Below are positions 2,962-12,021 of a stretch of 33,395 nucleotides of DNA, in pieces. Numbering within the stretch: the first letter of the stretch is position 1; each line of letters starts with the position of its first letter. Source of the DNA: Desulfuromonadales bacterium (GTDB taxonomy: Bacteria > Desulfobacterota > Desulfuromonadia > Desulfuromonadales > UBA2197); contig JACUTW010000022.1 in NCBI GenBank assembly GCA_014859605.1, positions 1 through 33,395 of the forward strand, given 5' to 3'. The notes beneath the pieces are model-generated. The model made no database searches. It worked only from the letters and a program-made list of their open reading frames with translations, and was not told the DNA's origin. The position numbers and the translations under genes were made by a program.

Positions 2962-3054
2962 AGCTCCCCCCTTTGAAAAAGGGGGGCTGGGGGGGATTTC
3001 TTTTTGCGACCAGGCAAATCCCCCTAAATCCCCCTTTTTCAAAGGGGGACTTTT
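2962..3054. repeat. Intergenic inverted repeat, AAATCCCCC..CCCCCTTTTTCAAAGGGGG family
   Basis: AGCTCCCCCCTTTGAAAAAGGGGGGCTGGGGGGGATTT (2962-2999) versus AAATCCCCCTAAATCCCCCTTTTTCAAAGGGGGACTT (about 3017-3054), near-complementary. Confidence 0.85.
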
Positions 3055-4065: not shown

Positions 4066-4905
4066 TTATCTCCTTTGCTTCTTCTTCATGTGGAGTTCCA
4101 GCATCTCGGTCTTCTTGGCCAGAGCCTCGGCATTGGGGTATTCCCCCTGTAAGGAGTGGAGCAGACTTAAGGCTTCAACAAAGTTGTCGCGTTCTTCGAG
4201 AACAGCGGCCAGACCAAAGCGGGCTTCAATGGCATAAGGGCTGGTCGGCCAGCGCTCCATGACCTCACGAAAGGACTGAATCGCCGCTTCGCTTTCACCG
4301 AGCAGAGAGTAGACCGTTGCCACCCGATAGCCGGCTTCGGCCAACAGGGGACTCTGCGGATAATCGCGCCGCAACCCGGCAAAGGCTTCGACCGCCTGCG
4401 GGTAATCTTCCTGCCGGAAATAACTGTCGGCAATTTCGTATTGAATCTGATCGGGATTCGCCACCCCGAGACTCAGCGCCTTGCGGTATTCCTCGGCTGC
4501 GCGCGGATAGTCGCGCTGGCGGATTTTATAGATCTCGGCAATGCGCACCTGCGACTCCCGCACCAGGGCGGACTCGTCCGGATACTTTTGCTGCAGGGTC
4601 AGGTAATCGAGGAGCGCCTCAGGATAACGCTTCTGGTAAAGATTTTTGATCTCGGCGCCCTGAAACAACGCCTGGCCGGCGAGATGAAAGGACGGATTGC
4701 GCCGGTAAATCCCTTCGTAATAATCGAGGGCCTGCTGATAATCCCTTTCGCCGACCGCCACCGCCGCCAAACTGAAATCTGCTTCCAGGGTCTCTTCCAA
4801 TTGATTGGTCGAGTACAGGAGGCCGCCAAAGATCAGCACCAGAACCAGCAATAGTCCGGGGACGCCGCGCCGCCAGAAGAAGGATCTCTGCTTAGAGCGT
4901 TTCAT
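4066..4905 (-). CDS. Membrane-anchored tetratricopeptide (TPR) repeat protein
   Basis: [33 protein letters not shown]... TM helix followed by TPR-like repeats ([29 protein letters not shown]). Start chosen as 4905; the ORF is open to 4998 inside gyrA. Confidence 0.75.
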
Positions 4906-7471
4906 CTCCTCCTTCAGCAGCTTCTTCTGTAACTTCCGGATATCCATCATCCCCATCATGCTCTTCGTCCTTCTCTGCGAGTCGTGCCACCGCGACAATC
5001 CGCTCGCCCGGTTCGAGGACCATCAGTCGCACCCCTTGGGTGTTGCGGCCGATGACCGAGAATTGCGAGACCGAGGCACGTAGAATCTTGCCTTGATCGG
5101 TGATCAGCATTAAATCGTTGATGTCGGTCATCTGCATGAGATTGACGACATGGCCATTGCGCTCGGTCGTCTTGATCGTAATAATCCCTTTACCGGCCCG
5201 ACTCTGCACGCGGTATTCGGCGAGCTCGGTCTGTTTGCCGTAGCCGTTTTCGGTGACGGTAAAGATCGTCGAACTTTCGGCATCGGCTTTGATGATCTCC
5301 ATGCCGATGACAACATCATCCCCTTCGAGGGTCATCCCCCGCACGCCACGGGAGACACGCCCGACCGGACGGGCATCGTCTTCGGCAAAGCGGATCGACT
5401 TGCCGTTCTTCGAAGCGAGGAGGACGTGCTGCTTGCCGTCGGTGAGGGCGGCAGCAATAAGGCGGTCGCCTTCGTCAAGGTTGACGGCGATGATGCCGCC
5501 GACCCGGACATTGCTGTACTCTTTGAGCGGGCTCTTCTTGACGACCCCCTGGCGGGTGGCCATCATGATAAAGCGTTCGTCATCGAACTCCTTGACCGAA
5601 AGGATGGCGGTAATCTTTTCGCCGGCCTGGAGGTTGAGGAGATTGACGATCGCTTTGCCCCGCGTCGCCCGGCCCCCTTCGGGGATTTCATAGACCTTGA
5701 GCCAGTAAACGCGGCCGAGATCGGTAAAGAACATCATGTAATCTTTGCTCGAAGCGACGAAGAGGTGCTCGACGAAATCCTCTTCCTTGGTCTTCATCCC
5801 GCTCTTGCCTTTGCCGCCGCGGCGCTGCGCCCGGTACAGCGAGCTGGCGCTGCGCTTGATATAACCGGTGTGGCTGATCGTCACCACCATATCCTCTTCG
5901 ACGATGGTGTCTTCGAGGGTGATTTCGGCGCTGAGGTCGATAATCTGGGTACGGCGGACATCGCCGAACTTGGCTTTGATCTCGTTCAGCTCATTGACGA
6001 TAATCTTGTAAATTTCACTCTCGGAGCTGAGAATTTCTTTAAGCCGGGCTATCAACTGCTGGATTTCCCCGTATTCATTGAGAATCTTCTCGCGCTCCAT
6101 ACCAGTCAGACGCTGCAGGCGCATTTCGAGGATGGCCTGGGCCTGTTTCTCGGAGAGCTGCGGACGCTGGTTCTCCATCTCCAAAGGAACAGCGATCTCG
6201 AACTTCGCCAGCCACTCGGGATCGGCAAAGGTCCCGGCGATCAGCCCCTGGCGCGCCTCTTCCGGATTCTTTGCGGCTCGAATTAATTCGATGATGGCAT
6301 CGAGCCAGTCAAGAGCGATCTTCAAACCTTCGAGGATATGGGCGCGGGCCTCGGCCTTCTTGAGATCGAAGATAGTACGGCGGGTAACGATCTCTTTGCG
6401 GTGATCGACAAAGTGCACAATCGCATCGAGGATCGACAGCACCTTGGGGCGGCCGGCGACAATCGCCAGCATGTTGATGCCGAAGGAGGTCTGCATCTGC
6501 GTCTGTTTGTAGAGGTGATTGAGGAGCACCTGGGGGTTTTCGTCGCGCTTGAGATCGATGACGATGCGCATCCCGTCGCGGTCCGATTCGTCGCGAATGT
6601 CGGAGATCCCTTCGAGCTTCTTTTCGCGGACGAGTTCGGCAATCTTGGTAATCAGGTTGGCTTTGTTGACCTGATAAGGGATTTCAGTGACGACGATCGA
6701 CTGCCGCTCGTTCTTCTTCTGGGTCTCGACAAAAGCGCGGGCCCGCATCTGCACAATGCCGCGGCCGGTGCGGTAGCCCTGGACGATCCCTTCACGGCCA
6801 TAGATAAAGCCGCCGGTCGGGAAGTCGGGGCCGGGGATGATAGCGATCAACTCTTCGACGCTGATCAGCGGATTGGCGATGTAAGCGATAATGCCGTCGA
6901 TGACTTCATTGAGATTATGGGGAGGGATGTTGGTCGCCATGCCGACAGCAATGCCGGAGGAACCGTTAACCAGGAGATTGGGGAATTTGGCGGGGAAGAC
7001 CAACGGCTCGTAAAGAGAGCCGTCGTAGTTCGGCCCCATCTCCACGGTCTCTTTATCGAGATCGTTGAGCAATTCGTGGGCGAGCTGCTCCATGCGGATT
7101 TCGGTATAACGCATCGCCGCCGGCCGGTCGCCGTCGATCGAACCGAAGTTACCCTGGCCGTCGACCAGGGGATAGCGCAGGGAAAAGTCCTGGGCCATGC
7201 GGACGATGGTGTCGTAAGCAGCGGTATCGCCGTGCGGATGGTACTTACCGATGACGTCACCGACGACGCGCGCCGATTTTTTGTAGGCTTTGTTCCAGTC
7301 GTTCCCCATTTCATGCATGGCAAAGAGACAGCGACGATGCACCGGCTTCAGCCCGTCGCGCACATCCGGCAACGCCCGGCCGATGATGACGCTCATCGCG
7401 TAATCCATGTAGGAACGCTTCATCTCGTCTTCAATATTGACGGCGGTCTTTTTCACGATCGGTTCAAGCAT
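4892..7471 (-). CDS. gyrA: DNA gyrase subunit A
   Basis: [44 protein letters not shown]...; active-site region [11 protein letters not shown]-terminal beta-pinwheel repeats, QRRGGKG GyrA box. Confidence 0.98.
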
Positions 7472-7517
7472 TCGGTATTCCTTGTGTCAGTTATGGATTT
7501 TGCTCTATTTAATCTAA

Positions 7518-7660
7518 AAACAGCAGTTAACCGCAGATAAGGGCGGATAAAATCTGATAAATCAAGACGTTAATTATGTTGTCCGGCTCACCCGCCGGGT
7601 GAAATGCTTGTCTCTAGTTTTATCTGTCCTTATCAGCAGTTATCCGCTTTTTCAGCGGCC
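7518..7660. repeat. Long imperfect inverted repeat, CAGATAA/GGATAA type
   Basis: AAAACAGCAGTTAACCGCAGATAAGGGCGGATAAAATCTGA (about 7518-7558) aligns with the reverse complement of TCTAGTTTTATCTGTCCTTATCAGCAGTTATCCGCTTTTTC (about 7613-7653), about 30/41 identical by eye. The loop carries hairpin TCACCC-gcc-GGGTGA (7588-7602). Confidence 0.65.
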
Positions 7661-7737
7661 AAATGTTTTTTTGGGTTTAACTATGTGAACTGTCAGATGC
7701 ACGGTGATCTCCTTCGAAATGCCGCGTCCTCAGCCTA

Positions 7738-8079
7738 TCAATGCCCGGCTGACTCCCCACTCTGCACCACCACATACGCCGCTTCAATCTCTTGCTGGAA
7801 ACTCTCGGGAATTCGGGCCCAATCGACGATATCGACTCGCAAAGGCAGGTTGCTTTCGCTTAACGCCGCCCGCAGTGCCGCAAGGCCGTTGCTCTCGATG
7901 TCCGGATGCCGCGGGTTGCGCACCACCAGATCAAGATCGCTGGCGGCATGCCCCTGGCCGGTGACGCGGCTGCCGTAGGCCCAAACATCGGATGAAGGGA
8001 CATGCCGGAGCAGGAGTTCCCGCAACAGAGCCAAGTGACGGGGCGATAGCTGCAGAATCCCGGCGCCACACTCAGGCAT
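7738..8079 (-). CDS. Minimal nucleotidyltransferase (MNT), MntA-like antitoxin candidate
   Basis: MPECGAGILQLSPRHLALLRELLLRHVPSSDVWAYGSRVTGQGHAASDLDLVV...LRVDIVDW: GS-x10-DxD nucleotidyltransferase signature plus a downstream Asp. Start trimmed from the ORF track because upstream residues overlap HEPN coding. Confidence 0.85.
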   Translation of the reverse strand: MPECGAGILQLSPRHLALLRELLLRHVPSSDVWAYGSRVTGQGHAASDLDLVVRNPRHPDIESNGLAALRAALSESNLPLRVDIVDWARIPESFQQEIEAAYVVVQSGESAGH

Positions 8080-8509
8080 CCTGGTCCCCGCGTCTGAAGT
8101 GCTTTGCCAACGTCTCTTCGAGAATCCCCACATCGGCAATAAAGGCCGGCAGGAGAAGAAGCGTCTCTTTGGCGAAGCCTTCACCGTAGTCATGAGCGGT
8201 GTTATTGCGGTTATCACGATATTCAAACCAGCGCTCGACAGCGTCAAGGGAAAGAAGACCATGCACCGCGGCGAGACGAAGAAGCTCTTTGACCGTGGTC
8301 GCGTCGAGTTGCCGGGCGCCGTGCCCGAAGTCGCGCAAGGCCTTTCGGATCAACTTGAAACTCGTCTCCTGCACCAACTCATAGCCTTTGACAATGGCAT
8401 TACGAAAAACCTCTTGCTCGACACTCCCGGCCTCAGCTTGCCCGTAGAGGGTCACGGAGGATTGCAAAGTCTGGATGCAGCGCTGGAGATGGTCGGTATT
8501 GAGGTTCAT
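8072..8509 (-). CDS. HEPN-domain protein, HI0074/HepT-like (nucleotidyltransferase substrate-binding family)
   Basis: 145 aa, helical, with ...WFEYRDNRNNTAHDYGEG...: R-x4-H-x-Y HEPN motif (RNNTAHDY). Overlaps the adjacent MNT gene by 8 nt. Confidence 0.85.
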   Translation of the reverse strand: MNLNTDHLQRCIQTLQSSVTLYGQAEAGSVEQEVFRNAIVKGYELVQETSFKLIRKALRDFGHGARQLDATTVKELLRLAAVHGLLSLDAVERWFEYRDNRNNTAHDYGEGFAKETLLLLPAFIADVGILEETLAKHFRRGDQDA

Positions 8510-8515
8510 CGCCGG

Positions 8516-12021
<3,506 letters not shown>

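Follow-up and report, generated by a model that had tools for sequence, protein, structure and literature searches.

A HEPN/MNT gene pair in the gyrB-gyrA junction of a Desulfuromonadales genome and toxin-antitoxin genes in other core-operon gaps

Introduction

What is a pair of genes resembling a toxin-antitoxin (TA) module doing between the two genes of DNA gyrase? The question is raised by a 33,395-nt stretch of Desulfuromonadales DNA (contig JACUTW010000022.1 of assembly GCA_014859605.1), referred to here as the window. A sequence-only reading of the window had described a HEPN-MNT pair between gyrB and gyrA, and proposed either a link of the pair to gyrase synthesis or a chance insertion at a tolerant site. 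The genome of the window is termed G000, and G001 and G002 are its congeners, giving three genomes of the genus in the data set. Several of the genomes compared are fragmented.

The insertion of TA modules into operon gaps has been described for E. coli and Salmonella, the examples being relA-mazEF-mazG, dinB-yafNO-yafP and ccd at folA-apaH (PMC7167474). The mechanism of TA integration, the movement of the modules and their insertion sites were stated in the same work to be unsettled. Gene maps in the present analysis were drawn from the longest open reading frames (ORFs) rather than with a gene finder. Genes were named by reading the ORF translations, while HEPN, PIN and ParE proteins were assigned by Pfam.

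The HEPN and MNT genes

The pair is as the sequence-only reading had it, with coordinates and Pfam in agreement. Both genes lie on the minus strand between gyrB and gyrA, HEPN first, and their reading frames overlap by 8 nt. The HEPN gene (8072..8509, 145 aa) is a predicted RNase toxin of the PF08780 (NTase_sub_bind, HI0074-like) family. The MNT gene (7738..8079, 113 aa) is HI0073-like, belongs to PF01909/PF18765 and encodes a predicted adenylyltransferase antitoxin. All three Pfam models exceeded their cut-offs: PF08780 on HEPN (E = 1.4e-15; 57.9 bits against 31.8), PF18765 on MNT (E = 3.1e-8) and PF01909 on MNT (E = 2.1e-7; 31.7 bits against 21).

The two motifs claimed for the pair are intact. 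The RX4HXY motif reads RNNTAHDY (HEPN residues 101-108; 8186..8209, minus strand) and the GSX10DXD motif reads GSRVTGQGHAASDLD (MNT residues 36-50; 7930..7974, minus strand). In four homologous pairs, with HEPN identities of 59-70%, the catalytic residues are kept, and the motif decay in relatives that had been considered was not seen. Seven of the eight HEPN motif positions are invariant across the five homologues; only residue 103 varies, between N and S. GSX10DXD is fully kept in the four homologous pairs and present in all seven aligned MNT proteins. The nearest solved structures are those of HI0074 for HEPN (phmmer 1.5e-7) and HI0073 for MNT (phmmer 5.4e-18). Taken with the Pfam matches, these similarities indicate that the motifs exceed chance.

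Class I HEPN/MNT pairs are defined by a HEPN protein of PF01934 or PF08780 with RX4HXY and an adjacent PF01909 protein with GSX10DXD (PMC7641770). Here PF08780, RNNTAHDY and an adjacent PF01909 protein with GSRVTGQGHAASDLD occur together, which places the two genes in Class I. The RX4HXY motif holds the Arg and His of the RNase and the Tyr that accepts AMP (PMC7641770), the latter predicted to be Tyr108 in this protein.

Known systems differ from the pair in several respects. HepT/MntA of Shewanella oneidensis (SO_3166/SO_3165; type VII, Class I) likewise joins a HEPN protein with RX4HXY to a minimal nucleotidyltransferase with GSX10DXD (PMC7641770). However, the HEPN protein of the gyr site belongs to PF08780 and not PF01934, its gene comes first, and the pair sits inside the gyrase operon. 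The HepT and MntA equivalog models of NCBIfam (NF047751, NF047752) gave 18.9 and 36.8 bits, below their cut-offs of 60 and 60. HI0074/HI0073 of Haemophilus influenzae (PDB 1jog, 1no5) provide the best solved-structure matches for both proteins, but HEPN scored 38.6 bits with the model of the HI0074 subfamily (TIGR01987), under the cut-off of 55.8. As the scores fall below all these NCBIfam cut-offs, the pair is placed on a divergent HI0074/HI0073 branch and is not filed as HepT/MntA proper. The MNT gene is usually the first in MNT-HEPN dyads (PMC3710099), whereas the presumed toxin gene leads here.

Seams and expression at the gyrB-gyrA junction

The pair is inserted in the direction of the operon without visible damage to either host gene. 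Upstream, gyrB (8516..10903, minus strand) retains its natural C terminus, and its stop (8516) is separated from the HEPN start by 6 nt. Downstream, 266 nt lie between the MNT stop and the start (7471) of gyrA (4892..7471, minus strand). The 33 nt directly before gyrA (7472..7504, minus strand) are identical in G001, and no blastn match in the G002 spacer covers this segment. The GC contents of the pair (55.7 and 62.3%) are near those of gyrA and gyrB.

No sigma-70-like promoter was matched in 7400-8800, and no ribosome-binding site for the HEPN gene was recognisable by eye. The 6-nt gap and the lack of a promoter match suggest that transcripts reading through from gyrB supply the expression of the pair, and its translation would proceed by coupling.

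No target-site duplications were evident by eye at the gyr, his or ole seams, and Rfam gave no matches. The sequence-only reading had noted no transposase or phage gene nearby, and none was recognised by eye among the ORFs of the window. Insertion linked to tRNA genes was rejected, as neither the window nor the main insertion loci contain a tRNA. Transfer by plasmids carrying close relatives was also rejected, the plasmid matches being only 27-31% identical.

A palindromic repeat about 150 bp long and dispersed in the genome lies within the 266-nt spacer (7508..7680, no strand assigned) and folds as one long hairpin (fold z-score -4.5). Ten further long copies (L205-L214) and two fragments, 71-93% identical, are present in G000. 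These lie away from the HEPN/MNT sites, so the repeat was dismissed as the vehicle of the pair and is probably a separate passenger. Elsewhere in the window, short C-rich inverted and direct intergenic repeats of the CCCTCCCC...AGGGGAGG type occur at 498-565, 2252-2354 and 2967-3048, with two near-identical copies 1.8 kb apart.

The junction across the order and genus

Gap lengths were compared across 113 genomes of the order with gyrB and gyrA on one contig. The median gap is 58 bp. It measures at most 205 bp in 111 of the genomes and is enlarged only in G000 (1044) and G001 (784). The sequence-only reading had proposed examining whether the pair is conserved at this site in related Desulfuromonadales; a PF08780-type pair was found there in one genome of the 113. 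Neither gyrA nor gyrB flanks any other locus fetched with a homologue of P0001. The junction is empty in close relatives, as is characteristic of operon-junction TA modules, and the conserved association with gyrB/gyrA that would mark a gyrase-linked regulator is absent.

Within the genus, the gyrB DNA of G001 is 94% identical to that of G000. Its junction holds a PF05168 HEPN (1.8e-12) and a PF01909 MNT (2.1e-8), an unrelated pair of the Class II type without RX4HXY. BLASTP found no match between the HEPN proteins of the two gyr sites. G002 has a spacer of 58 nt and no insert. A contig scan with GyrB returned no further members of the genus. The occupied site is known from two genomes only, both of them draft or metagenome-like assemblies in more than 100 contigs.

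Other HEPN/MNT pairs in the genome

G000 carries seven HEPN/MNT pairs, the gyr site included. The sequence-only reading took accessory regions to be the usual home of such pairs, which does not hold for this genome, where several lie in or beside core operons. A second PF08780 pair separates hisA from hisF, with hisA ending slightly earlier; the two genes overlap in G002. The single PF01934 pair lies behind guaB-guaA-NUDIX, where G001 has an orthologous pair and G002 has none. The remaining four belong to PF05168. One is located between oleB and oleC, a junction that is empty (about 8 nt) in both congeners, and another behind acnB, where both lack it. A third precedes an aldo/keto reductase gene and is absent in G002. 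The fourth lies behind carA-DUF486, and G002 has an unrelated PF01934 MNT-HepT pair before carB. Upstream of an ABC-F gene, G000 and G001 carry a PIN protein and G002 carries MNT-HepT. Genes hisA, hisF and carA were not found in the fragmented genome of G001.

An apparent common sequence upstream of the MNT genes at the car site proved to be another frame of the DUF486-like gene. The carB gene near carA looks different in G000 and G002 (L173 2396-5596; L179 5715-8957), the gene order around carA differs too, and a replacement of carB in G000 is possible. The cluster downstream of acnB in G000 (L175 965-3290) comprises MNT-HEPN, a ParE toxin and a small RelE/ParE-like ORF lacking a Pfam match.

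Occupancy and turnover at hisA-hisF and pgpA-cinA

The hisA-hisF junction was surveyed with a joined hisA/hisF query in genomes at least 95% complete, of which 63 yielded a gap length. Its median is 67 bp, and it reaches at least 500 bp in seven genomes (G000, G004, G007, G033, G037, G038 and G062). All seven large inserts hold TA genes on the his strand, from at least three families (L223-L227, L235), although seven full sites are few and the Phd/ParE pairs in four of them are related to one another. These four are the sites of G004, G033, G037 and G038. G000 has HEPN/MNT, while G007 and G062 have PF09720/ParE-like genes, G062 with an additional CopG-like gene below the Pfam cut-off.

Empty and scarred sites are found beside full ones. 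The hisA-hisF junction is empty in G024, a congener of G004, and G029, of the genus of G038, retains a Phd remnant of 32 codons. Between pgpA and cinA, G004 has a full PF08780 HEPN and MNT pair, and in G024 a deletion has left only the N-terminal codons of the HEPN gene as a scar (L027 and L218).

The direction of the inserts was counted only where both host neighbours are known and co-directional. All ten follow the operon (gyr twice, his in four types, ole, car in G002, acnB and pgpA-cinA). Under random orientation the probability of this outcome is about 0.001, and selection against antisense inserts could yield the same result.

Alternative explanations

The position of the pair could be an artefact, in that an assembly or binning chimera placed accessory genes between gyrB and gyrA. 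The high contig numbers of G000 and G001, above 100 in each and typical of draft or metagenome assemblies, would fit this. Nevertheless, a chimera is scarcely credible, given the intact ends of gyrB and gyrA, the 33 nt before gyrA that match the separately assembled and also occupied G001, the GC content of the pair and the one continuous region from dnaA to gyrA in the window. Regulatory coupling, by which the pair would be kept as a connection of gyrase synthesis or DNA supercoiling with RNA cleavage or translation arrest, is very unlikely. The modules of G000 and G001 do occupy the same operon position in the same direction, but they are unrelated, G002 is empty and 111 other genomes of the order lack a large insert. 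In G000, moreover, his, ole, car, gua and acnB genes have comparable pairs beside them. The link to gyrase synthesis put forward by the sequence-only reading is not borne out, with the pair in one of 113 genomes, an unrelated pair in the sister genome and six more pairs by genes of unrelated function; on the survey of the site across the order, a gyrase-specific function was rejected. Its other proposal, a chance insertion at a tolerant site, comes nearer to the truth as regards the tolerant site, but the repeated occupation of operon junctions by TA genes speaks against a single accident. Improbable, too, is a two-subunit nucleotidyltransferase with HEPN as the substrate-binding subunit and no TA function, as in the original description of PF08780/HI0074. 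The Pfam and NCBIfam names follow that description, and HEPN domains fused to nucleotidyltransferases have often lost the RNase motif (PMC3710099). Here, however, the RX4H motif and the Tyr are intact in the pair and its four homologues, and PF08780/PF01909 pairs with these motifs have been grouped with the experimentally shown HepT/MntA (PMC7641770).

A further alternative bears on how the site came to its present state and does not conflict with the TA reading of the pair. Class II and Class I pairs may once have stood in tandem at the gyr site, G000 and G001 each losing one, which would require a single insertion and no replacement. A tandem of the two families exists in G040 (locus L014), and the 33 identical nt beside gyrA are common to G000 and G001. 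In addition, the gyrB sequences of G001 and G002 resemble one another slightly more than either resembles that of G000, so that an occupied ancestor with later loss in G002 is possible. A tandem ancestor is nonetheless less likely than not, for no remnant of either pair beyond the 33 nt was found in the gap of the other genome, and the same course of events would have to be assumed again for the carA-DUF486 site, where two congeners also differ in the pair they hold.

Role of the pair and wider significance

The pair is quite probably a type VII-like addiction module of the Class I HEPN/MNT kind that has no gyrase-specific role, occupies an operon junction tolerant of insertion and relies on read-through for its expression. 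Such a module would have inserted co-directionally with the operon, the gyrB-gyrA junction serving as a tolerant and always-transcribed slot. HEPN is predicted to act as an RNase toxin, and MNT would silence it by adding AMP to Tyr108. The module may then maintain itself by addiction, possibly with a part in phage defence, until it is replaced or deleted. The operon location may bring some benefit. With TA pairs in several core-operon gaps, such gaps have the look of landing sites that can be used again, and do not point to a tie with gyrase.

More tentatively, core-operon junctions of this order (gyrB-gyrA, hisA-hisF, oleB-oleC, carA-carB and pgpA-cinA) might be preferred, reusable TA slots, a wider reading for which the odds stand somewhat below even. 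Modules would enter along the operon, leave the neighbours unharmed, borrow transcription and be exchanged with unrelated modules, small internal deletions being the usual exit. This would come about because essential neighbours make large deletions costly.

The insertions in E. coli and Salmonella share several traits with those described here, namely chromosomal intercistronic modules that are absent in other strains, sites that take different elements and repeats at the sites (PMC7167474). In contrast, the present sites are gyrB-gyrA, hisA-hisF, oleB-oleC and others within one order, Class I and Class II HEPN/MNT pairs occur at one spot, and every large hisA-hisF insert found is TA. No literature report of TA genes at gyrB-gyrA or hisA-hisF was found, a negative of little weight because the search did not extend to subscription papers. 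TA insertion in operon gaps is known from E. coli, while its recurrence together with class exchange in this order appears to be new.

Where one genus shows the same junctions filled, filled with another module, empty or scarred, there is direct material for the study of the seams and of the insertion mechanism. A TA gene inside a core operon should not, on this account, be read as a regulator of that operon.
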